DNA from: Ruminococcus sp.
GTDB taxonomy: Bacteria > Bacillota > Clostridia > Oscillospirales > Ruminococcaceae
DNA: 64,000 nucleotides
Assembly (NCBI RefSeq): GCF_017549005.1
Contig: NZ_JAFYYT010000054.1
Coordinates: 1 to 64,000 of the forward strand
Direction of reading: 5' to 3'
In this document: in pieces, positions 2,894-15,268 of the stretch
Position numbering within the stretch: position 1 is the first letter of the stretch
Layout of the letters: each line of letters opens with the position of its first letter
Notes under the pieces: generated by a model
Database searches by the model: none
Told to the model about the DNA's origin: nothing
Seen by the model: the letters and a program-made list of their open reading frames with translations, nothing else
Made by a program: the position numbers and the translations under genes

Positions 2894-5869
2894 ATGAATT
2901 TAAAAACACTGAAAAGAGCGATCAGCGGTACAGTGTCCGCATTGATGCTTGCAACGGGAATCCCCTCCGTTTCTGTTGTAGACGCAGCCGATCAGCAGAA
3001 TAGAGGCAATGTCGGCGGCTACGACTACGAAATGTGGAATCAGAACGGACAGGGTCAGGCATCAATGAATCCGAGTGCAGGCTCGTTTACCTGTTCCTGG
3101 AGCAACATTGAGAACTTCCTCGCTCGTATGGGAAAAAATTACGACAGCAAAAAACAGAACTATAAACAGATAGGCAGCAATATAGTTCTCGAGTACGACG
3201 TAGAGTACACACCAAGAGGAAACTCCTATATGTGTGTATACGGCTGGACGAGAAATCCTCTTATGGAGTACTACATCGTTGAAGGCTGGGGAGACTGGCG
3301 TCCACCCGGAGACGGTGCAGAGAGAAAGGGCAGCGTAACACTTAACGGCAATACATATGACATAGCAAAGACAATGCGCTACAATCAGCCTTCTCTCGAC
3401 GGTACGGCTACATTCCCGCAGTACTGGAGCATTCGTCAGACAAGCGGTTCAAGAAACAACACTCAGAATAATATGAGCGGAACAATTGACGTTTCCAAGC
3501 ATTTCGACGCATGGTCGAAGGCTGGTCTCGATATGTCGGGTACTCTCTATGAGGTATCTCTCAACATTGAGGGCTACAGATCAAACGGCTCGGCTAATGT
3601 AAAGAAAGTAAGAGTTTACGAGAATTACGACGAAAAGAAAGACAACGATACCACAACAACTGAGATAGAAGACACTACAACAAAGGCAGGGCAGGACGCA
3701 GACGGATACTGGTATCACAGCACATTCGAGAGCTCATCGGACGGCTGGTCAGGCAGAGGCGCTGCTACTGTTGAGACAAGCAGTACAGCCAAGTTTGCAG
3801 GCAGCAAGTCGCTGTATGTAAGCGGCAGAACAAACAGCTGGAACGGTGCGAGCCTCGAGCTCGGCAGCGCTTTCAAGGCAGGAGAGACATACAGCTTCTC
3901 CACAAATGCCTGCTATACAAGCGGTTCTTCCGATACTCAGGAGTTCAAGCTTTCACTCCAGTATTCAGACGGCTCAACAACGAAGTATGATCAGGTAGCT
4001 ATCGCTTCCGCTCCTAAGGGCGAGTGGGTACAGCTTGCAAATACAAGCTACACTATCCCCGAGGGTGCAACTGATCTTCAGCTCTATGTTGAAACGACAG
4101 ACGAGAACGAGTATGTTGATTTCTATATAGACGAGGCTATCGGTGCTCCTAAGGGCACAGCAGTTGACGGCGCAGGTCAGCCCAAGGTACGTCAGGTACT
4201 CCTCGGCGACCTCAATTTCGATGAAAAGATAGACTCGCTTGATATGATAACCGCAAGAAAGGGACTTCTTGCAGGCGGCTTTGACGATTCAAAGACTCAG
4301 AAGGCAGCCGACGTAGATCAGAACAAGAAGTTTGAAACAGCAGACCTTGTTCTTATCCAGGAATATATCCTCAAGAAGATAACAGAATTCCCTGTAAACA
4401 AGCCTGAGGTAGATCTCTCAGAACTCGCTTCAAAGTTCGGCTCGGTAAGCCTTGCTGAATCATGGAAGAAGGACAACGAGAACAATCCTCTTACCACACA
4501 GCGTTTCGGCGCAGACCCAGGCTGGATGGTATATGACGGCAGACTCTATATCTACACCACAAACGACGCATTTGAGTATAACGGCAATACAATACAGGAG
4601 AACTCATACGACGTTGGTACTATCAACTGTATCTCATCTGCCGACCTCGTTAACTGGACAGACCACGGTGCTATCCCTGTAGCAGGCAGAAACGGCAGAA
4701 CCCAGAATGGTGCAGCCAAGTGGGCATCATGCTCATGGGCACCTGACGCAGCATGGAAGATGATCAACGGCAAGCCCAAGTTCTTCCTCTACTTCGCTAA
4801 CAGCGGCGGCGGTATCGGCGTTCTTACAGCTGACAGCCCGACAGGTCCATGGTCGGATCCTCTCGGTCACGCACTCCTTACAGGTCAGTCACCTAACTGC
4901 TCTGACGTTGTATGGATGTTCGACCCGGGCGTATACTATGACGAGGAAACAGACGAGGCTTACCTCTTCTTCGGCGGCGGCGTTGACAACAGAGACGTAT
5001 CCAACCCGAAGACAGGACGCTGTGTAAAGCTCGGCTCAGATATGATATCACTGGACGGCAGCCCGCAGACAATGCAGACTCCATACCTCTTCGAGGACTC
5101 CAGTCTTATCAAGATCGGTGATACATGGTATTACTCATACTGTGCTAACTGGAACGTACCTAACGGTACAAACATCAACGGCGTAGGCTTCGGCAACGCT
5201 GACATCCTCTACATGACATCAAAGAATCCTCTCGGACCGTGGACATCGAGCCAGCTGAAGGGTAACGTATTCAAGAATACAGGTACACAGGGTATCGACA
5301 ACGGCGGTAACAACCACCACTCGATCATCTTCTTCAAGGACAAGTACTATGTAGCATACCACTCACGTCAGCAGGAAATGCGTATGAACGGCGGCAAGGA
5401 CAGAAACTACCGTTCAACTCAGCTCAACGAGTGTACATATAATCCGTCAAACGGCACACTCAGTGCAAAGGGTGATATGACAGGCGTTAAGCAGATCGAG
5501 AACCTCGATCCTACACAGACAGTACGCGCATCTACAATGGCTAACGAGTCAAAGGGCATAAGCGTATCAGGCGTAGGCAATACTACAGTAGAGTTCAAGA
5601 AGGGCGAGTGGGCTAAGGTAAGTCAGGTAGACTTCTCCAAGGTTTCAAGCGGAACTCTCAAGGCAAAGGCTTCTTCAAAGAACGGCGCTATCATCAAGGT
5701 AGTTGCAGGTTCAAGAACAAGCGGCACTGCTATCAGCTACATTGAAGTACCTGCAGGCGGCTCTATGACAGAGATCGACACAGTACTTGCTGATTATCCG
5801 AGCGGTGCATCAGACATCTACTTCATCGCAAACGGTGATGTAAGCTTCGACAGCTGGACAATGTCATAA
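2894..5869 (+). CDS. secreted cellulosomal xylanase: GH11-CBM22-dockerin-GH43-CBM6-like
   Basis: A 991-residue extracellular bifunctional enzyme for xylan or arabinoxylan. A signal peptide spans about residues 1-31. GH11 endo-xylanase (about 38-246) has the family's two glutamates: E125 in NPLMEYYIVEGWG (nucleophile) and E226 in LNIEGYRSNGSA (acid/base). A Thr-rich linker leads to a CBM22-like domain (about 270-420). A type-I dockerin (about 436-495) has two calcium loops, DLNFDEKIDSLD and DVDQNKKFETAD. A five-bladed GH43 domain (about 510-865) carries the general-base Asp in FGADPGW (D541); its substrate is probably arabinofuranosyl or xylosyl side chains. The last 115 residues resemble CBM6. 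The dockerin would bind a scaffoldin cohesin. Codon use is strongly biased (AAG, ACA, CTC), suggesting high expression. The start follows AAGGAG by 10 nt. Confidence 0.93.
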   Translation: MNLKTLKRAISGTVSALMLATGIPSVSVVDAADQQNRGNVGGYDYEMWNQNGQGQASMNPSAGSFTCSWSNIENFLARMGKNYDSKKQNYKQIGSNIVLEYDVEYTPRGNSYMCVYGWTRNPLMEYYIVEGWGDWRPPGDGAERKGSVTLNGNTYDIAKTMRYNQPSLDGTATFPQYWSIRQTSGSRNNTQNNMSGTIDVSKHFDAWSKAGLDMSGTLYEVSLNIEGYRSNGSANVKKVRVYENYDEKKDNDTTTTEIEDTTTKAGQDADGYWYHSTFESSSDGWSGRGAATVETSSTAKFAGSKSLYVSGRTNSWNGASLELGSAFKAGETYSFSTNACYTSGSSDTQEFKLSLQYSDGSTTKYDQVAIASAPKGEWVQLANTSYTIPEGATDLQLYVETTDENEYVDFYIDEAIGAPKGTAVDGAGQPKVRQVLLGDLNFDEKIDSLDMITARKGLLAGGFDDSKTQKAADVDQNKKFETADLVLIQEYILKKITEFPVNKPEVDLSELASKFGSVSLAESWKKDNENNPLTTQRFGADPGWMVYDGRLYIYTTNDAFEYNGNTIQENSYDVGTINCISSADLVNWTDHGAIPVAGRNGRTQNGAAKWASCSWAPDAAWKMINGKPKFFLYFANSGGGIGVLTADSPTGPWSDPLGHALLTGQSPNCSDVVWMFDPGVYYDEETDEAYLFFGGGVDNRDVSNPKTGRCVKLGSDMISLDGSPQTMQTPYLFEDSSLIKIGDTWYYSYCANWNVPNGTNINGVGFGNADILYMTSKNPLGPWTSSQLKGNVFKNTGTQGIDNGGNNHHSIIFFKDKYYVAYHSRQQEMRMNGGKDRNYRSTQLNECTYNPSNGTLSAKGDMTGVKQIENLDPTQTVRASTMANESKGISVSGVGNTTVEFKKGEWAKVSQVDFSKVSSGTLKAKASSKNGAIIKVVAGSRTSGTAISYIEVPAGGSMTEIDTVLADYPSGASDIYFIANGDVSFDSWTMS

Positions 5870-6012: not shown

Positions 6013-7944
6013 TTACATATATTTGAATGTAGATATCTTCCATTTCCCGTCATCAAGTTCAAGGAATATGAGCATATATGAGTCTGTCGGATCATCAACC
6101 TTAGCACGTACAGTCATTGTTGTTTCAGTTGAATTCATTACCTCGACATCTCCTGTAAAATTAAGGCCTCCGAATCTTGAAATGCGGCTGTAGAGCTTTC
6201 CGTTTTCCACATTTTCGATATAAACTGGGAATCCGTCCGAATCAGAATGAGCTGTAATTGCGTTTATCAAGTCTTCTCTGTACGAGCCGACTGTTCGTTC
6301 GCTGATAAAGCTCTTAATATCGTCAAGAGTTGAAAAACGCGGATCATCGACTTTGTAGTAAGCGATATTGTTAGGATTTGTCATTCCGCAGTATTTATAT
6401 ATCGTGTCGTTATCGAGGTGGTCGATTTCATCTGTTATAACTGTTCCGTTCATGACCTTCATTACATCATTCAGCATATTCGGAGCTTCTTTTGCAATGC
6501 CCGGGGCGTCGCTGTCTGCGGCTGTAGGCTGTTCGTCATCTGGATAACCGAAGTCGCTTATCTTCCAGCATTTATCCTCATATACAGCTGTGAACTTAAC
6601 CTTTTCCGTACCCCCCGGTATTGAGTTTAGTGCGATAATTGTATATGTTCCGTCTTCATTGCTTATAACCTCAGGATTTCCTGATAAGTTATAGCGGTTT
6701 CCCCTTGCATAATCACGGCAGTAGAGCTTTCCGTCAAATTCCTTGAACATTGGTGCTTCAAAGGCTTCATCGTCATAGATAAAGGCGTATGACTTGCTGA
6801 GCGCAGGTTCCGTAACAGCTGACGTAACTTCGTTTTTCATCATATCCATGTCTAAAATGCCTGACATGATGACTCTGTAATATACAGCTGTTCCCTTGCC
6901 GTCGGAGGGCGAAGAAAGATCCAGATACTTAATATCTCCACGGTCGGTTCTTAATTTGATGTCTCCTGCAAGCATTCTGTCAGCATTTTCAAATGACATC
7001 AGCAGATCCATAGCGTCTTCCTTATCAAACTTATCCGGATCCTGCTCTGCTCTGAGTTGAGACGAAGCAACATCAGTTCTGAAGCTGTCAAGCTTCCATT
7101 TTCCTCCCTCAAGAACAGCATGGCCATAACACGGTGTATCGGGCATAACGACGGTATCATAATAATCTGTGGTCAAAGATATATCAAAGCTGGTTCCGTC
7201 ATAGTTTTCAACTTCAATTGCTGCTTTGCCTATAACATTGCGTTCTTCATCAGCAGGTTCAGTGTAATCATGTTCCTTCCTGAAATAGAGCTTTCCGTCT
7301 ATCTCTCTGAACGCAGGCTCACGACCGGTGTAGTCAAAGAAAGCTGCGCTGAAGTCATCGAGAACTATTCCCGAGAACGTATCTGTCAGGTAATGGTTCA
7401 GCTCGTCGGCAGTGCTCCATTTGCTCGCGACCCTTGTGTATACAACCGGCGAGCCGTCATTGCCTTCCACTGTCTGCGTATCATCATTGTCAAGCTCTAT
7501 GCTCATAGGTAAACCTTCCATAAGTTCACTTGCATCATAAAAGCTTCCAATAAGCTTGCCTGCGATTATCTTAGTATCTTCCGCAGGAGATGTGGAGCCC
7601 ACCGTAGAAACAGTATCAGAGTCGCTGAACGGTGTCTTTATTGCATTTCTGTTCTTGTTCAGCGTGAAAACTGTTCCGCCTATGCCGCAGACCAGCAGCA
7701 TGCAGGCAGCAACAGAAGCGACAGCGTGCCACTTTGGTCTGTGATAGCGCTCAACACCGCTTACCTCGTATCCGTCATTGTTTATATTTATATTACTTTC
7801 TCTGTTCATTTTGTCCAGCTTTTTCTTGCTCATAGCCAGCAACCTCTCTTTTTCTTCTTTTGTGAGCACAGGGACCTCTGAAAGAAGCTCCAGTGTTTTG
7901 TCGTCTGCATTTTCAAGCATATCAAATTCACGATTCTCTTTCAT
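6013..7944 (-). CDS. membrane-anchored ECF partner (anti-sigma-like) with three ectodomain repeats
   Basis: A 643-residue single-pass protein. A charged cytoplasmic segment of about 75 residues precedes one membrane helix (AVASVAACMLLVCGIGGTVF), and the rest lies outside. The ectodomain has three diverged repeats of about 150 residues, each ending in a pattern like FxExDGKLYxR ... (D)GKWKxxxF. This resembles the IseA/YoeB DL-endopeptidase inhibitor family, but that match is from memory and weak. The gene starts 13 nt after an ECF sigma gene, the usual place for a cognate anti-sigma factor. The start at 7944 is set by AAGGAG 9 nt upstream; the upstream in-frame ATG abuts the GGAG. Anti-sigma function is inferred from topology and context. 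Confidence 0.7.
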   Translation of the reverse strand: MKENREFDMLENADDKTLELLSEVPVLTKEEKERLLAMSKKKLDKMNRESNININNDGYEVSGVERYHRPKWHAVASVAACMLLVCGIGGTVFTLNKNRNAIKTPFSDSDTVSTVGSTSPAEDTKIIAGKLIGSFYDASELMEGLPMSIELDNDDTQTVEGNDGSPVVYTRVASKWSTADELNHYLTDTFSGIVLDDFSAAFFDYTGREPAFREIDGKLYFRKEHDYTEPADEERNVIGKAAIEVENYDGTSFDISLTTDYYDTVVMPDTPCYGHAVLEGGKWKLDSFRTDVASSQLRAEQDPDKFDKEDAMDLLMSFENADRMLAGDIKLRTDRGDIKYLDLSSPSDGKGTAVYYRVIMSGILDMDMMKNEVTSAVTEPALSKSYAFIYDDEAFEAPMFKEFDGKLYCRDYARGNRYNLSGNPEVISNEDGTYTIIALNSIPGGTEKVKFTAVYEDKCWKISDFGYPDDEQPTAADSDAPGIAKEAPNMLNDVMKVMNGTVITDEIDHLDNDTIYKYCGMTNPNNIAYYKVDDPRFSTLDDIKSFISERTVGSYREDLINAITAHSDSDGFPVYIENVENGKLYSRISRFGGLNFTGDVEVMNSTETTMTVRAKVDDPTDSYMLIFLELDDGKWKISTFKYM

Positions 7945-7957
7945 ATTCCGCATCTCC

Positions 7958-8524
7958 TTATAATGTGATACCGGCAGAAGCCAGTGTGGTTTTCAGCTTA
8001 TCGAGAGCTCTTGCTGCCCTCATTCTCACAGCAGAGGCTTTCATGGAAAGCTGCTCCGCTATCTCCGAAGAAGAACGGTCATAGTAGTATTTCTGAAGGA
8101 TAATGGTAGAGTCAGGCTCGCCCAGCTCGTTTATCTTGCTGATAAGTATACTGCGTGTCTCAGCCATATCGGAGTCATGCTCGATATCATCGTCAGAGCC
8201 GATATTGAAAAGCTTCTCCTCAGCCTCCTCAGAGAAATGACCGCTTCTTGCGGCAAGACTGTGAAAGGCATTGATAGCGCGGCGTTTGGCAACAGTCCCC
8301 ACGTAGCCCTTCATATCACCTGCGAAGCTGCTTGCGGTGTCGTAGCCGAAGAAAATATCCGCGAAGATATCGCTGACGCATTCTTCGATGTCTTCCCTTG
8401 AAGCAGCGCTTCTGAGTTTATTATAGACAATAGCGTACACATAGTCGCAATAGCATTCAAAAAGCGCGTCATAAGCCCTGTCTTTGGACTTTTTATACAG
8501 AGCGCAGTATTCTTTACCTGTCAT
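7958..8524 (-). CDS. ECF-type RNA polymerase sigma factor
   Basis: A 188-residue sigma-70 family protein with region 2 (about residues 10-90; DALFECYCDYVYAIVYN, REDIEECVSDIFADIF) and region 4 (about 125-180; SSSEIAEQLSMKASAVRMRAARALDKLK, a helix-turn-helix). There is no region 1.1 or 3, as expected for ECF factors. It directs RNA polymerase to a dedicated promoter set. The start at 8524 has AGGAGG 6 nt upstream; the frame extends further 5' without a binding site. The membrane protein at 6013-7944 follows 13 nt downstream and is the likely partner. I found no convincing autoregulatory promoter upstream. Confidence 0.88.
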   Translation of the reverse strand: MTGKEYCALYKKSKDRAYDALFECYCDYVYAIVYNKLRSAASREDIEECVSDIFADIFFGYDTASSFAGDMKGYVGTVAKRRAINAFHSLAARSGHFSEEAEEKLFNIGSDDDIEHDSDMAETRSILISKINELGEPDSTIILQKYYYDRSSSEIAEQLSMKASAVRMRAARALDKLKTTLASAGITL

Positions 8525-8717
8525 GTTTATCCTCCTGAATCGTTGAAAGTTTTCCATGGAAATTGTGCTTTCATAAATAACATTCAAGACTGAGAACGAA
8601 AGTGTCACAAACTTTCAGAAAAAATTTTTTGCGTTTGATAACTGGCTGACGTTTGCGTAACTGCCCACGTCGGCAGCCTTCAGGGCAGTTCATACTAATT
8701 AATTGTAAGCAAAGTTA

Positions 8718-9412: not shown

Positions 9413-9447
9413 ACAAAAAAAGCGTAAAGAAATTCGTTTCCTTACGC
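9413..9447 (-). terminator. terminator of the ECF/multi-EF-hand operon
   Basis: On the minus strand GCGTAAGGAAA-CGAA-TTTCTTTACGC forms an 11-bp stem (one G-U pair) with a tetraloop, followed by seven T residues. Confidence 0.85.
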
Positions 9448-9511
9448 CTTTTTCGCATTTAAAATATCAGTTAGGGGTAAATTTTATTATATGAAATGAG
9501 CTGCGTGTAAC

Positions 9512-11521
9512 TCATTCAGTATAATTCTGCTTGTGATTGAGCAGACGGTTCTGGATCGCCAGTACGTCTGTAAGAGTGATACCGTTGTTCTTTCCGTCGA
9601 TATCTCCGTTGAGCCTTCCGCGGTCTGTAAGCTGGAACTTGTTTGGATTGGAGAGATACTGCATTATGAGTACGGCGTCAGCCATATCAACAGTTCCGTC
9701 ACAGTTAACGTCGCCGTCAAGAGCGTAAGGATCAATATTTGAGGTGTTCTGCGAGTCAGTCTTATCCGGAGGCGTATCATTGATATCCTCGTCATTGGTG
9801 AGCAGCACATACATCTGCGTAAAGAAGATATCGTAGATATCGCCGCTCGTTCCGTTCTGATTGAAGTCACAGCTGCTGTTGATGTTCTTCCACACATCAG
9901 CAGGTATTTTAAGGCTGCTGTTATTTGTATTTGCAGCGACTTCAAAAATGTAATCGCTTGCAACAGCGTAGTCCTTGTGGTCCACTGCTCCGTCCATATT
10001 AATGTCGGGAGCTGCCTGTTTTCCCGAGGCTACGTTTTCGCAGTAGGTCTTGAAGCCGTTCTCGAAAACTTCATTATCAAAGTGGAAATAGCTGTCCTCT
10101 TCGGGGATAACTCCTATTTCGACAGCACGGTAGTAGAGGCTGTCGCCGATGGAGTATTCCTTTGCATATCTGACTATGCTCTCGTAGAAATCATTTTCAA
10201 AGAACTCGGGCATAAGTGTCATATGGGAAGCAAAATAGTCTTCCAGTCCTGTTAAGAAGCAAGAAACTTCATCTGTATACTCGTATTTAACGAAAGGTCT
10301 TGCAAGGTACACAGCGTCGCAGTTCTTTTTGATATTATCGGGAAGAACGATCGCATTCGGACGGGGAGCTGTTGTATATCCGCCCTCAACGGGAACGATA
10401 TAGTTATCGAGGTAATTGTCGCCGTTGATCTTGAGATAGGTGAAGTCCTCGATATCCACATTTCCGTTCTTGTTCACATCGAGATCGATAATATCCTTGT
10501 CCACCATATCCTCTATGATATAGTGGTCGATCATGAGTTTGTGTGCAAAGCTGCTGACCGTATATGCAAATGATGATTCGCTGCTGTTTCCCGACTGGAG
10601 GGCGCTGTCCGGATCGCCATAGGCAGCGGGTGAAACATCGCTGTACGTCACCCTGTTGTTGATAAGACAGAAGCATACGAGGATATCAGCATCCTCAGAG
10701 CTTATCTTACCGTCCTGGTTGTAGTCGGCATTTTCAGCTATGAGCTGAACAGTCTCCTGTGGGATATTCAATTCGTTACCGGGAGCATCGTTTCCGCTGC
10801 CCGAGCAGTATTGATACAGCAGGCGGCAGTCCTCAAGGTCAGACTTACCGTTACTGTCAAGGTCGGTAAGCATACTGAGCTTTCTGATATTCTCGATACC
10901 GTTTTTCTGATTCGGGTATCTGTCATCGCTGACATAGTATTCGGTATTGACGTTTGAGATAACGTTTGAGACCGAAGCAGTGAGTGCAGAGAGGAATACA
11001 GGTATCCTCTGCATATCTACTCTCACTTCATGGATGGGAACATCGGGCTGAACTTCTGCTGCAGTTGTAGCGACTACAGGTACAGCCGCGATGGGTGAAG
11101 ACGTGACGGCGCTGTTTTTCACTGTATTATCGGTTAATTTCTTGTCAGTAGTGACAGTGCAGAAAGCCGCGGTAGTAACCGAGCTTGTCACTAAAGTATC
11201 TGCCCGTTTACGGGTCGTTTCCGTAACAGTTCCCGACAACGCCGTTGTTGTCCTCGTCGTCTTGTTTGTGTCATAAGCTGTTGTTGTGCTCATCTGATCC
11301 TGATCCGGAGTGGTTTCCGCAGGCGCAACGTTATTGATCTCAGGCGGAATTACTGCGTTATTGTATCGGTACATACCCTTACCGATCACTGCCGCAGTAC
11401 AGCAAGCAAACGCGGCGGCAGCAGCACTGTACTTCACGATCATTGCTTTTCGCTTGTCCTTTGCTATCTGCTCATCGCGCCGTCTGAGCACGGCTTGAGT
11501 GACCTTATCATAGTCCCGCAT
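9512..11521 (-). CDS. single-pass membrane protein with seven dockerin/EF-hand loops
   Basis: A 669-residue protein. A basic cytoplasmic tail of about 30 residues precedes one membrane helix (about 30-50), a Thr-rich linker (about 70-160) and a large ectodomain with seven calcium-loop motifs: DLDSNGKSDLED, DYNQDGKISSED, DVNKNGNVDIED, DINMDGAVDHKD, DFNQNGTSGDIYD, DVNCDGTVDMAD and DIDGKNNGITLTD. Six can be paired and the last pair looks like a canonical type-I dockerin. The start at 11521 has AAGGAGG 9 nt upstream, inside the end of the upstream ECF sigma gene, which it overlaps by 14 nt; translation is probably coupled. By position and topology it could be the anti-sigma or sensor partner, with the ectodomain binding cohesins or reporting calcium. 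No known anti-sigma domain is recognisable in the short tail, so this is inference. Confidence 0.75.
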   Translation of the reverse strand: MRDYDKVTQAVLRRRDEQIAKDKRKAMIVKYSAAAAAFACCTAAVIGKGMYRYNNAVIPPEINNVAPAETTPDQDQMSTTTAYDTNKTTRTTTALSGTVTETTRKRADTLVTSSVTTAAFCTVTTDKKLTDNTVKNSAVTSSPIAAVPVVATTAAEVQPDVPIHEVRVDMQRIPVFLSALTASVSNVISNVNTEYYVSDDRYPNQKNGIENIRKLSMLTDLDSNGKSDLEDCRLLYQYCSGSGNDAPGNELNIPQETVQLIAENADYNQDGKISSEDADILVCFCLINNRVTYSDVSPAAYGDPDSALQSGNSSESSFAYTVSSFAHKLMIDHYIIEDMVDKDIIDLDVNKNGNVDIEDFTYLKINGDNYLDNYIVPVEGGYTTAPRPNAIVLPDNIKKNCDAVYLARPFVKYEYTDEVSCFLTGLEDYFASHMTLMPEFFENDFYESIVRYAKEYSIGDSLYYRAVEIGVIPEEDSYFHFDNEVFENGFKTYCENVASGKQAAPDINMDGAVDHKDYAVASDYIFEVAANTNNSSLKIPADVWKNINSSCDFNQNGTSGDIYDIFFTQMYVLLTNDEDINDTPPDKTDSQNTSNIDPYALDGDVNCDGTVDMADAVLIMQYLSNPNKFQLTDRGRLNGDIDGKNNGITLTDVLAIQNRLLNHKQNYTE

Positions 11522-12062
11522 ACGTAATTCCCTCCTTTTCAAGTTCAGTTTTCAGAGCTTTTTTGGCTTGATATAAAAGATTTGTGATCTGTTTGTTACT
11601 CTTCTTCATTATCACCGCCGTTTCAGCATTTGAAAAGCCTTCGAGATATATCAGGTGTATCACCTGACGATATTCGTCTTTCAGATTTGAAATAGCCCTG
11701 TGAATGATAGCTTTTCTCTCTTCTTTGATATAAGCTTCTTCCACATCAATATCAGAGTTAAGCTCCGTACAATCGTCAAAGGACACAGATTTACAGCCCT
11801 TGCGCTTCCTGAGACTGTCTATCGCAAGATTCCTTGCAATGGCGTACAGCCAGGTCTTGAAGGAGCTTTTCCCCGTATATCGCGGCTTTTTGTAAGCCAG
11901 TCGGAAAAAGGTCTCTTCCATCAGCTCTTCTGCTTCAGAAAGATTATTGGTGAAGCTGTTCAGAAATGCGATGAGCCCGTCCATGTACTCGCGGACCAGC
12001 TCTCCCATAGCGGCATCATCACCGGCAAGATAACGGCTGTAGCTACTTGCACCATTATCCAT
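11508..12062 (-). CDS. ECF-type RNA polymerase sigma factor coupled to the multi-EF-hand protein
   Basis: A 184-residue ECF sigma factor. Region 2 shows AEELMEETFFRLAYKKPRY and the SSFKTWLYAIARNLAIDSLRKRK helix typical of sigma region 2.2-2.4. Region 4 shows LKDEYRQVIHLIYLEGFSNAETAVIMKKS and NLLYQAKKALK, the -35 recognition helix-turn-helix. AAGGAG lies 7 nt before the ATG. Its 3' end overlaps the membrane protein gene, so sigma factor and partner are made together. A sigma-A promoter at 12370-12398 would transcribe the operon with a leader of about 300 nt. A CGTCTAATA element at 12099-12107 resembles an ECF -10 box, but no matching -35 box is clear. Confidence 0.9.
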   Translation of the reverse strand: MDNGASSYSRYLAGDDAAMGELVREYMDGLIAFLNSFTNNLSEAEELMEETFFRLAYKKPRYTGKSSFKTWLYAIARNLAIDSLRKRKGCKSVSFDDCTELNSDIDVEEAYIKEERKAIIHRAISNLKDEYRQVIHLIYLEGFSNAETAVIMKKSNKQITNLLYQAKKALKTELEKEGITYAGL

Positions 12063-12556: not shown

Positions 12557-15268
12557 TCAGTTATTTCCCTTTAAAAGCTCTTTCCTCATTGCGATTATGT
12601 CGAATACGTCTATTATTCCGTCCTCGCAGAGGTCAGCGTTCTTCCAGTTTGCAAGCTCCACGCTGTTGTCGGCTGTGAGCCATCTCTGCAGGAGCACCAG
12701 GTCTACAACATTGAATTCTCCGTCGGAATTTGCGTCGCCGCGGACGTCGGAGGTATAAACAGCCTCAACTGTAGCGTCAGATGTGAGCTTGAAGCTGATA
12801 GTTGCAGAAGTCTTATCGCCATCGGTTATCTGTGCGCCCTTGACTATCCAGTGTGAGAATGTGCGTCCCTCCTCGGGAACAGCGGTGATAGTCATATCGT
12901 AATCGGAGTGGTAATTGCCGCTCCAGCCGTCGGTCTTGCCGAGGTCGAGGGTGTTGAGCTTTATGCTGCCGTTGCCGGCGTGATTGCTGACGGTGAGCTT
13001 ATACGGAGCAGCCGAGAGCTTTGCAGCGGAACGTGTAGTGCTTTCCGCATACGAATAGCGCTTTGAATAGAAATTGAGTACTGTGGATATAGCGCCGTCA
13101 AATCTGTTTTCTCCGCTTCCGCCTGAAAGGCTGTTTGAATTGAATCGTGCGAATGTATCGAGTACCTGCTGTCTGTAGTTGTTCTTATAGTAGTTGATAG
13201 TTTCTGCTGTTTTTTCTGTTGTGAAGTTGAAATTCGCAAGATCCATCATAGTTCTTGAGAAATCGAGCCTGAACTTATCGTTTTTCATGAGAGCTGTGAA
13301 CATTTTGCCTATATCGCTGTTTGTGCTGCTGATACGTCTGTAGCAGTCGGCAGAGAAGGACTTGTCACTGCTGCCGTAAAGTCCCTGTCCCGACTCTGTA
13401 TCGAAGAGTATCATTCTCCACTTTCCGTCTGCATAGGGATTGGTCTCGTCGATAGTGTCGGAGCGCCATGCGGTATAGTTTCTCTGCGGCCAGTCTGCGT
13501 TAGCCCAGTATATCTGAGCTGCAAAATAGTCCATGAAGCCCTGTACATCGACCTTATTGCAGAATTCGTCATAGGAAATGCTTCCGCCTGCAACGCCCTT
13601 GCAGAGCTCGTTCCAGTCGCTGAGGTCCTGCTCTGAGCCCTCATCGAGGTCGCCGTTCTTTATCATGGCTACGCTGCTTTTCTTAACGCCGTAGTGGGAG
13701 CTGAGATAGTCCTTGCCGATCTTTTCCATCATCTGATAAATGCCCCAGAACTCGCCGTCTATGAACACTATGCACTCGGTAGTAGCCTGATATGCAAAGG
13801 CTCTGTCGGTGATAAGGCTCTGATTTATGCTGTCGCGGAAGAAAGCGTAAGTATTGTCGTTTCCGCCGTTGCGGAGGACAAGACCGTCGTACTTCTTTAT
13901 AGCCTTGCCATTTTTAGCCTTTGTAGCCTTGCCCGAGAAGAGGTCGTAGTCGAATTCGGGTGTGCCGTAGTCCTCACGGGTATAAACGGTGAAGCTTTTC
14001 TGCGGCAGGCTTCTTGAGTAGTTGCCCTTTATGCGGATACCCACGTTCTGCTCAAGGACCTTTTCGCCGTTGTCGAAGAGAGTGAATGAAGCCTCGCGCT
14101 CCCAGTCTCTGCCGCGCATTGTATAGTTTGCAGGCATTTCCCACGGATTGCCGGCTCTCTGACGGGGAACTCTGTTATCCTCGGGCTCCCTGTGCTCGGG
14201 ACCGTTTTCCTCCTTGGGCTTTTCATCTTCCTTGGGACGTTCGCCCTCCTTTGGCTTGTCGTCCTCCTTAGGCTTGTCGTCAGGCTGCTGCTGACCGCCG
14301 TATGCCTGTCCGAGGCAGTATATACCGTTTTCATAGCCGAAAAGGTTATCGGGGTCTGTAACCAGTGAAACGACCTTCATTTTCGGATAATAGCCTGAAT
14401 TCGTCTTGCCTATGAGATAAGTCTTTGTAACGGTATCGCTTATGCGACCCTCGCTGTCGACCGATACAGCGCGTATTACAGCAGCCTTGTCCACGGTGCT
14501 GCGCGGAGCTTCCGCTCTGCCGGGAACTATATCGGTACGTGCGCTCAGACGGTTCTGAGTGTCGGACATATCCTCAACGGTGATAGGTCCGGAGTACTTC
14601 TCGGACTCTGTGGTAGGGTCGCTTCCGTCAGTGGTGTAGTATATTGTGCAGCCCTCGTCGGCTGTGAGGGTAAGTGAGAAGCTGTTGTCATAGAAGCCGC
14701 TGTCCTGTGAAAAAGCAGGCTGGTGTACGGCATTGCTGCCCTCGGGAGCAGTATTTGTCTGTGCAGGAGTACATTTGAGGGTGTAGAACTCGCCGCTTCC
14801 GTCGGGATACTGTCCGTATGAGGCGTCCTCGGCAATTGAGCCGAAGGTGATAGTGTGAGCAGTTTTGCCCTGTGCGTCCGTGAGAACTATGGTCTCGCCC
14901 GAGGTGGAAAGTCCGAAGGGAGCTATTTTGCTGTCATTTGCAGCTGCGTCGCTGTCGCAGAAGACTACCAGTCTTTCGCCTGCCTTGATAGCCGTACCCT
15001 CGGGGAAGGTGTAAAGATAGGGCTTTTCTTCCTTGTCGGAAAGTCCCCAGCCCGAAATGTTAGCTTCCTGACTGCCGCTGTTGTACAGCTCTATCCAGTC
15101 GTAAAAGTTTCCGTCAGCAGCCTGATAGGTGCTGTTCTTGGCGCAGACCTCATTCAGTGTGACAGCTGCGCTGTCCTCGGCGTTTACAGGGAGATATGCA
15201 GCGGATTGCATTATTATGCCAAGGCATAATATCCCCGAAACGGTTTTGCTTTTGAAATGCTTTTTCAT
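12557..15268 (-). CDS. secreted CotH kinase with lamin-tail domain and C-terminal dockerin
   Basis: A 903-residue exported protein. A signal peptide (1-30) is followed by a lamin-tail domain (about 35-165; LNEVCAKNS, DWIELYNSG, ISGWGLSD), a chitobiase/hexosaminidase-type beta domain (about 185-285; TIYYTTDGSDPT), a charged linker of degenerate KPKE units (about 329-360), and a CotH kinase domain (about 296-720). The kinase shows RIKGNYSRSLPQKSF, GLVLRNGGND, GEFWGIYQMMEKI and MILFDTESGQG, matching nucleotide- and metal-binding motifs of this secretory kinase family. A Gly-rich beta domain and a type-I dockerin (about 840-900; DANSDGEFNVVD, DLCEDGIIDVFD) end the protein. CotH proteins phosphorylate coat proteins in Bacillus; dockerin-bearing versions are known in ruminococcal cellulosomes with unclear roles. 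AGGAGG precedes the ATG. Confidence 0.9.
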   Translation of the reverse strand: MKKHFKSKTVSGILCLGIIMQSAAYLPVNAEDSAAVTLNEVCAKNSTYQAADGNFYDWIELYNSGSQEANISGWGLSDKEEKPYLYTFPEGTAIKAGERLVVFCDSDAAANDSKIAPFGLSTSGETIVLTDAQGKTAHTITFGSIAEDASYGQYPDGSGEFYTLKCTPAQTNTAPEGSNAVHQPAFSQDSGFYDNSFSLTLTADEGCTIYYTTDGSDPTTESEKYSGPITVEDMSDTQNRLSARTDIVPGRAEAPRSTVDKAAVIRAVSVDSEGRISDTVTKTYLIGKTNSGYYPKMKVVSLVTDPDNLFGYENGIYCLGQAYGGQQQPDDKPKEDDKPKEGERPKEDEKPKEENGPEHREPEDNRVPRQRAGNPWEMPANYTMRGRDWEREASFTLFDNGEKVLEQNVGIRIKGNYSRSLPQKSFTVYTREDYGTPEFDYDLFSGKATKAKNGKAIKKYDGLVLRNGGNDNTYAFFRDSINQSLITDRAFAYQATTECIVFIDGEFWGIYQMMEKIGKDYLSSHYGVKKSSVAMIKNGDLDEGSEQDLSDWNELCKGVAGGSISYDEFCNKVDVQGFMDYFAAQIYWANADWPQRNYTAWRSDTIDETNPYADGKWRMILFDTESGQGLYGSSDKSFSADCYRRISSTNSDIGKMFTALMKNDKFRLDFSRTMMDLANFNFTTEKTAETINYYKNNYRQQVLDTFARFNSNSLSGGSGENRFDGAISTVLNFYSKRYSYAESTTRSAAKLSAAPYKLTVSNHAGNGSIKLNTLDLGKTDGWSGNYHSDYDMTITAVPEEGRTFSHWIVKGAQITDGDKTSATISFKLTSDATVEAVYTSDVRGDANSDGEFNVVDLVLLQRWLTADNSVELANWKNADLCEDGIIDVFDIIAMRKELLKGNN

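Follow-up and report, generated by a model that had tools for sequence, protein, structure and literature searches.

A candidate cohesin-docked anti-sigma receptor encoded with an ECF sigma factor in a Ruminococcus genome

We have analysed a 64,000-nucleotide stretch of DNA, referred to here as the window, from contig NZ_JAFYYT010000054.1 of Ruminococcus sp. assembly GCF_017549005.1, and describe within it a gene for an extracytoplasmic function (ECF) sigma factor together with the gene that overlaps it, which codes for a membrane protein with a row of EF-hand loops and a C-terminal dockerin. We propose that the two probably constitute a cohesin-docked anti-sigma receptor, a two-gene ECF signalling unit plugged into the cellulosome. 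Computed support for this comes from the conserved pairing of the genes, the covariation of the N-terminal tail of the membrane protein with the sigma factor, the type of the dockerin and its contact residues, scaffoldin genes in the same genome, a promoter motif and a terminator hairpin. Related genes also carry, at the nucleotide level, the signature of an internal start. The source genome is 3.33 Mb in 56 contigs, is 93.8% complete, and belongs to the same genus as Ruminococcus flavefaciens FD-1 and XPD3002.

Conservation of the gene pair

The sigma factor matches Sigma70_r2 (1.8e-16) and Sigma70_r4_2 (1.6e-10) of Pfam, both above the cut-offs, as well as TIGR02937 of NCBIfam, also above its cut-off, and with only sigma2 and sigma4 domains in 184 residues it has the composition and length (about 180–200 residues) of an ECF sigma factor. 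The initial annotation of this DNA gave the sigma and partner genes a 14-nt overlap, and their coordinates agree with this (Table 1). Relatives of the sigma factor at E ≤ 1e-30 are present in 78 of 100 genomes of the genus. From at least about 150 sigma matches we took 80 regions, mostly the top-ranked ones, which together with loci of the same genome and those collected earlier gave 97 sigma genes, a sample that leans to close relatives. All 97 are followed on the same strand by a partner gene, whose start lies at −14 in 89 cases, −17 in four, −11 in two and −26 in one; in the remaining locus (L149, G034:C1) the tail and transmembrane helix (at −17) are read in another frame than the ectodomain, the change falling near an A-run of the linker. 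This is either a true split or an assembly error, and the embedded start and leader described below are intact. The pairing in relatives, which the annotation had put forward as a check, is thus general in this sample, and its view that the partner has the position and topology of an anti-sigma factor is in keeping with the conserved −14 overlap.

A dockerin match or at least two EF-hand loops are present in 29 of the 97 partners, 27 of which have the dockerin match and two (L146 and L152) EF loops without one, although this fraction is not a genus average because of the lean to close relatives. A partly overlapping set of 80 loci from named strains contains 83 sigma genes and 81 partners, 74 of them at −14, and 14 of these 81 are dockerin/EF partners (two weak), including those of R. 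flavefaciens Y1, XPD3002 and YL228. In a tree built from 140 different sigma sequences, 33 of which have a dockerin/EF partner, the label changes six times, compared with a mean of 29.8 and a minimum of 24 when labels are shuffled; the dockerin/EF members form two clades, of 22 (support 0.984) and six (0.974), along with a less well supported pair and three genes that stand alone. A second, more distant sigma of YL228 (L295, 127 bits) also has a dockerin/EF partner, of 546 residues, with an embedded signal peptide and a strong Shine-Dalgarno (SD) sequence (−12.4). The partners of the other kind (for example L100:6345-7139 and L096:3369-4364) have a like tail and often a Thr-rich stalk, and Pfam gave nothing at cut-off for the five of their ectodomains that were tried; they are possibly other sensors on a common chassis.

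Covariation between the tail and the sigma factor

The partners begin with a tail of about 31 residues that is recognisable with or without a dockerin. We examined its covariation with the sigma factor in 140 pairs, from which identical sigmas, odd lengths and other offsets had been dropped and the overlapping codons excluded, using mutual information with average product correction (APC-MI). Tail positions 7, 8, 14 and 15 covary with sigma positions 16, 20, 47–49 and 56, the highest values being s20-t8 0.53, s49-t14 0.41, s56-t15 0.39, s16-t15 0.38, s48-t7 0.33 and s47-t14 0.30, against a maximum of 0.17 in 30 permutations. Seven of 4806 pairs involving the tail exceed 0.25, and none of 3382 in a transmembrane control, where the maximum is 0.22. 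The signal is readily seen in the residues themselves: E49 of the sigma factor occurs with R or K at tail position 14 in 111 of 112 pairs, and where the sigma factor has Q49 the tail residue is V, A, E or I in 24 of 25. Covariation with sigma4 is weak (s165-t7 0.23), and a group of pairs between s182–184 and t2–4 was dropped as an artefact of the overlapping frames.

Changes were also counted on a tree from which the tested columns had been left out, with the random expectation taken from 5000 draws. Five of the seven charge changes at sigma position 49 share a branch with a charge change at tail position 14 (0/5000 random), and shared branches number eight for s56-t15 (0/5000), 15 for s20-t8 (2/5000), 11 for s48-t7 (1/5000) and three for s16-t15 (32/5000). 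Measured against 300 control column pairs, whose shared fractions have a 95th percentile of 0.46 and a maximum of 1.00, s49-t14 (0.71), s56-t15 (0.62) and s20-t8 (0.52) lie above that percentile. The spacing of tail positions 7/8 and 14/15 would fit a single helix face, and position-specific covariation with sigma region 2 is what would be expected of an anti-sigma helix in a cytoplasmic sigma-binding domain. The sigma2-binding helix of class I and II anti-sigma factors sits on regions 2.1 and 2.2, where it likely prevents binding of core RNA polymerase (PMC7406223; here and below, PMC numbers refer to part of the paper concerned). The contact between tail and sigma factor that the initial annotation had proposed is thus supported at the level of sequence.

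Dockerin type and scaffoldins

The partner matches Dockerin_1 of Pfam with 47.1 bits, best over residues 603–661, and its nearest relative in the Protein Data Bank (PDB) is the R. flavefaciens group I dockerin 5m2o_B (E = 6.6e-19). Group 1 dockerins contact ScaA and ScaB cohesins mainly through I39 (V or M also occur), V43, Q47, Q83 and L87 (PMC5429695), and at these five Doc1a positions the window's dockerin has M613, V617, Q621, Q657 and L661. It is in this respect like Doc1a (5m2o) and Doc1b (5m2s), all five contact positions being kept, but group 1 dockerins are those of secreted enzymes whereas this one is on a proposed membrane receptor. The FD-1 partner (L150, G068:C93) scores only 16 bits with Dockerin_1 (E 0.014, below cut-off) and 90 bits with a local profile grown from the window's dockerin.

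At least 141 Dockerin_1 matches were counted in the genome after scoring 150 of its 245 candidates. A scaffoldin cluster on contig C51 encodes three proteins which, from their resemblance to the FD-1 cluster, we take to be ScaC-like (a cohesin and a group-1-like dockerin, 294 aa), ScaA-like (721 aa) and ScaB-like (1196 aa). The first cohesin of the ScaA-like protein has as its best match 5m2o_A, the cohesin solved with a group 1 dockerin (E = 5.3e-24); the cohesins of L132, L133 and L135 matched only 5n5p and not the group-1 complexes. Of the earlier suggestion that the dockerins would dock to cohesins, two elements are supported, namely the contact residues and a ScaA-type cohesin of fitting type encoded by this genome; docking itself is predicted. 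The dockerin of the window's paralogue on contig C26 (L099) is of another type, with the ScaH dockerin 8ajy as its nearest relative.

Embedded signal peptide and possible internal start

Of the 29 dockerin/EF partners 28, L146 being the exception, contain after the linker an in-frame ATG that opens a hydrophobic stretch resembling a leader, typically MKKL..F..AL....NA outside the window's clade (the window, L139, L002, L003 and L140) and degenerate within it. When these ATGs are located by residue features, their SD energies average −9.9 kcal/mol over 27 genes, compared with −2.4 for 421 other in-frame ATGs. Outside the window's clade 20 of 23 reach −9 or lower, against 0 of 433 other ATGs (28 genes), the exceptions being L151, L152 and L006; annotated sigma and partner starts are mostly at about −12 to −13. 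An E-R-S-like motif precedes the embedded ATG in 19 genes, in which its Arg codon is AGG in 16 of 17 (19% of the genes' Arg codons) and its Ser codon AGY in 13 of 13 (36% of their Ser codons), with nominal probabilities of 5.7e-11 and 1.8e-6 that are too small because the rows are related. With a loose pattern, 18 of the 23 segments outside the window's clade show an A-x-A-like cleavage site, and none of the five within it does. Secreted homologues of the ectodomain without an adjoining sigma gene have a like leader and SD (L129 −8.7, L130 −11.9), and among the 68 partners without dockerin or EF loops an internal ATG with an SD of −9 or lower occurs in five, with no signal peptide seen by eye behind any of them.

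An embedded signal peptide behind a strong SD suggests that one frame may give both a receptor and a secreted copy, and the simplest reading for these relatives is that translation also initiates internally, the frame of the receptor thereby giving a secreted dockerin protein as well. The initial annotation mentioned neither this feature, nor the promoter described below, nor the non-dockerin ectodomains of 68 of the 97 partners. The window's embedded ATG has a weak SD (−6.2 kcal/mol, a value that 5.8% of other ATGs reach) and no A-x-A site, and the SDs of its clade range from −5.8 to −7.9; since they are weaker there, the internal start has probably been lost and only the receptor form is left. 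The SD of the C26 paralogue in the same genome is strong (−12.9) and its leader complete.

Promoter and operon

Most of the sigma genes have, by eye, an upstream promoter-like motif whose −10 element is CG[TA]CTAA or similar throughout the family and whose −35 element varies by clade, being CTAAGA in the window's clade and TGAGAG, CTTAGTG or CTGCAACA in others; a few, such as L181 and L200, are without a clear motif. Differing −35 elements with similar −10 elements could keep the sigma paralogues apart. The pattern CTAAGA-N16-19-CGTCTAA was scanned for in 20 genomes, chosen mostly for having an orthologue of this sigma, and 22 sites were found in 17 of them (five with a reversed control). Seventeen lie directly upstream of this sigma's orthologue, as expected of an autoregulatory promoter, and one precedes a different sigma gene of this family (G105:C2:374099). 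At this stringency a wide regulon was rejected, since the four remaining sites do not exceed the five of the control, and no common theme was seen in the adjoining genes. Because of the motif at the sigma orthologues and a hairpin 3' of the partner gene, which was found by folding and not in a simple pattern scan, the sigma factor and its partner look like a two-gene, self-regulated operon.

Architecture and constraint of the partner

The seven EF-hand/dockerin loops that had been counted in the ectodomain are all present, five of them strict (220, 266, 348, 506 and 604) and two with an insertion (552 and 640), whereas shuffled ectodomains contain on average 0.05 strict loops and at most two in 2000 shuffles. 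The key Asp and Gly residues of six of the seven loops (not that at 266) are in columns that are invariant or at least 90% conserved in a 30-row alignment. A 19-residue hydropathy scan finds one transmembrane helix, in agreement with the single-pass topology first proposed, but a looser 15-residue scan also marks 109–124, 137–153, 173–189 and 273–287, so that this topology is probable rather than certain; the stretch at 173–189 is the remnant of the degenerate embedded signal peptide. With an N-in helix, an ectodomain and predicted co-transcription with the sigma gene, as judged from hydropathy, the 14-nt overlap and the 3' hairpin, the protein has the features of a transmembrane anti-sigma factor.

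Ratios of non-synonymous to synonymous substitution (dN/dS) were computed against the two nearest orthologues (L139 and L002). The dockerin, with 0.05 and 0.01, is the slowest or equal-slowest part of the ectodomain, and the values are 0.08 and 0.17 for the tail, 0.48 and 0.36 for the linker, 0.04 and 0.13 for the degenerate embedded segment (residues 166–200, 10922-11026, reverse strand), 0.12 and 0.12 for residues 301–500, and 0.09–0.14 for residues 301–585. By these values the whole frame, linker included, behaves as a translated protein, with the strongest constraint on the dockerin, the tail and the embedded segment. In the window's clade the embedded segment is thus constrained despite its weak SD and lack of an A-x-A site.

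Table 1. Features of the sigma factor locus (window coordinates; residues are those of the partner protein)
Feature	Coordinates	Strand	Basis
Autoregulatory ECF-type promoter (predicted): −35 CTAAGA, 17-nt spacer, −10 CGTCTAA	12101-12130	-	Conserved upstream of orthologous sigma genes
ECF sigma factor gene, 184 aa (sigma2 and r4_2-type sigma4)	11508-12062	-	Pfam, NCBIfam
Whole membrane partner, proposed anti-sigma receptor, 669 aa, ATG 11521	9512-11521	-	14-nt overlap with sigma gene
Putative cytoplasmic anti-sigma tail, residues 1-31	11429-11521	-	Covariation with sigma region 2; dN/dS
Transmembrane helix, within about residues 27-53	11363-11443	-	Hydropathy
Thr/Ser-rich linker, residues 54-165	11027-11362	-	Sequence
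Degenerate embedded signal peptide and internal ATG (M170, codon 11012-11014), residues 166-190	10952-11026	-	Alignment with relatives' embedded signal peptides
EF loop 1, residues 220-231	10829-10864	-	Strict loop pattern
EF loop 2, residues 266-277	10691-10726	-	Strict loop pattern
EF loop 3, residues 348-359	10445-10480	-	Strict loop pattern
EF loop 4, residues 506-517	9971-10006	-	Strict loop pattern
EF loop 5 with insertion, residues 552-564	9830-9868	-	Loop pattern and alignment
C-terminal group-1 dockerin, residues 602-661 (loops 6 and 7 at 604 and 640)	9539-9718	-	Pfam, PDB relative, loops, dN/dS
Hairpin and T-run 3' of partner gene, probable end of two-gene operon	9413-9456	-	Fold −23.1 kcal/mol, z −5.69

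Alternative interpretations

Several points weigh against a cohesin-docked receptor. The ectodomains of 68 of the 97 partners are not of the dockerin type, and the dockerin is therefore one sensor type among several. The covariation set has an effective sequence number of about 89, and not all of its pairs hold up on the tree: s16-t15 (0.46) is only at the 95th percentile of the controls and s48-t7 (0.41) is below it, the shared fractions of s47-t14 (0.22), s56-t11 (0.14) and s57-t18 (0.06) are low and also under that percentile, and the two branches shared by s56-t11 (2034/5000 random) leave this pair unsupported. At the stringency used in the 20 genomes, moreover, the promoter motif yields no regulon beyond the operon.

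It is conceivable, if rather unlikely, that the dockerin merely positions the receptor, as a scaffoldin anchor or so as to place a sensor beside the cellulosome, and that the internal EF-hand region (residues 200–585) reads calcium, a glycan or a peptide. Throughout the dockerin group this region is conserved, its Asp and Gly being near-invariant; it is under constraint over residues 301–585, and is also found in the secreted homologues that have no adjoining sigma gene; the dockerin, however, is more constrained still, which fits a working contact but is compatible with an anchor too. The embedded signal peptide could alternatively be a built-in cleavage site at which signal peptidase sheds the ectodomain of the full-length protein and starts regulated proteolysis, although we consider this improbable. 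The A-x-A-like sites outside the window's clade and the constraint on residues 166–200 within it, despite the weak start, would agree with such a role, and C. thermocellum RsgI signals via intramembrane cleavage by RseP and ClpXP (PMC12203970), but the Shine-Dalgarno sequences with their AGG and AGY codons are left unexplained, and the A-x-A site is missing from the window's clade.

That the embedded start is a functionless relic of fusion with a secreted dockerin protein, so that only the full-length protein counts, seems to us no more probable than a cleavage site. Stand-alone secreted homologues with a like leader and SD exist (L129 and L130), and the frame remains open in the window's clade although a canonical leader is absent there, both of which a relic would account for; yet 13 of the 22 genes in one sigma clade and five of six in another have retained the leader and a strong SD, with ectodomains only about 22–28% identical to that of the window. 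That the partner activates or chaperones the sigma factor instead of inhibiting it is very unlikely, for while covariation shows contact and not its sign, region 2 is the binding place of the class I/II sigma2-binding helix, which is thought to block core RNA polymerase (PMC7406223).

Relationship to known systems

The SigI/RsgI systems of Clostridium thermocellum and Acetivibrio are similar in having a sigma factor and a co-encoded membrane anti-sigma factor with a cytoplasmic part, a transmembrane helix and a variable ectodomain, and also in their autoregulation, several paralogues and cellulosome setting (PMC6056542, PMC3413522). They differ in that the sigma factor described here has an ordinary sigma4 (r4_2), its partner has no match to RsgI_N up to E = 1, and the ectodomain is a dockerin/EF array and not a CBM, GH or PA14-like domain. 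Membership of the RsgI/SigI family was rejected on the lack of an RsgI_N match and the presence of r4_2 instead of sigmaI-C.

The CnrY-type anti-sigma factors belong to another phylum. These class II proteins resemble the partner in their anti-sigma part of fewer than 50 residues with a helix on sigma2 (PMC7406223), but have a second helix on sigma4, for which there is no clear evidence here, and a different sensor. The cytoplasmic part of the partner is short and its covariation signal lies on sigma2, the sigma4 signal being the weak one given above. A class I anti-sigma domain (ASDI), with at least 50 residues and four helices (PMC7406223), was rejected, the cytoplasmic part being about 26–31 residues and without an anti-sigma Pfam match. 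The FD-1 dockerin proteins of Rincon et al. 2010 (PMC2930009) likewise have a C-terminal dockerin, and a term search of the main text of that paper finds none of 'sigma', 'transmembrane', 'membrane' or 'EF-hand'. The initial annotation knew of no described system of this kind, and in the open-access papers searched (PMC12484212, PMC3573020 and PMC6507058 among them) we too found no description of a dockerin anti-sigma factor, nor of a dual-start anti-sigma factor (internal initiation, decoy).

Genomic setting

The 3.3-Mb genome has undergone a large expansion of ECF and anti-sigma genes. There are 47 matches over the cut-off of the sigma70-ECF model, a few of which (for example the longest) are probably not ECF factors. 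Forty-five were read with their neighbours, two partial ones being left out, and in 38 a simple script finds the next gene overlapping or no more than 20 nt away and with a predicted transmembrane helix. The window's sigma has ten close relatives in this genome, and two of these ten have an EF/dockerin partner, namely the window pair and the C26 paralogue.

Directly upstream of the sigma gene is a gene for a CotH-kinase protein with lamin-tail, Fn3-associated and dockerin domains (12557-15268, reverse strand), which adjoins the sigma gene in only one (L242) of five relatives; the neighbours are kept in L242 and not in L251, L243, L244 or L252. A second, unrelated ECF sigma gene with a single-transmembrane partner lies at 6013-8608 (reverse strand), and the ectodomain of that partner is weakly similar to the DL-endopeptidase inhibitor IseA (7.9e-07, 29.6 bits with a cut-off of 29.9). 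At 2894-5869 (forward strand) is a gene for a multi-modular xylan enzyme with the organization GH11-CBM4/9-dockerin-GH43-CBM6.

Discussion

In the cohesin-docked receptor that we favour, the 31-residue tail would be a minimal anti-sigma domain, its helix packing on sigma region 2 and keeping the sigma factor off RNA polymerase. Outside the cell a flexible Thr-rich stalk would follow the one transmembrane helix and lead to the row of EF-hand loops and the terminal group-1 dockerin, which is predicted to dock on ScaA/ScaB-type cohesins at the cell surface. Docking, its absence, or a pull via the stalk may then alter the proteolysis or conformation of the receptor, and this change would free the sigma factor to switch on its own operon. 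The signal may in that case be the occupancy of the cohesins.

We suggest more tentatively, as a possibility rather than a probability, that relatives make both a receptor and a secreted decoy from one frame, the upstream start giving the membrane anti-sigma receptor and the internal start a free secreted dockerin ectodomain. Because the two would compete for the same cohesins, the receptor would report the number of empty scaffoldin cohesins. Of the two products, only the receptor would have survived in the window's clade, and the C26 paralogue would keep both.

RsgI receptors are reported to be used only by bacteria with Acetivibrio-type cellulosomes (PMC11557425), and for this reason the control of the cellulosome in Ruminococcus, a main fibre degrader of the rumen, looks open. 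The gene pair described here provides a concrete family of regulators with a candidate partner, present in R. flavefaciens FD-1, Y1, XPD3002 and YL228. If the dockerin is the sensor, then the code by which the cellulosome is assembled also feeds gene control; should the internal start be genuine, the receptor and a soluble decoy share one frame; and if both receptor and secreted copy are made, the cell may sense how far its cellulosome is filled.

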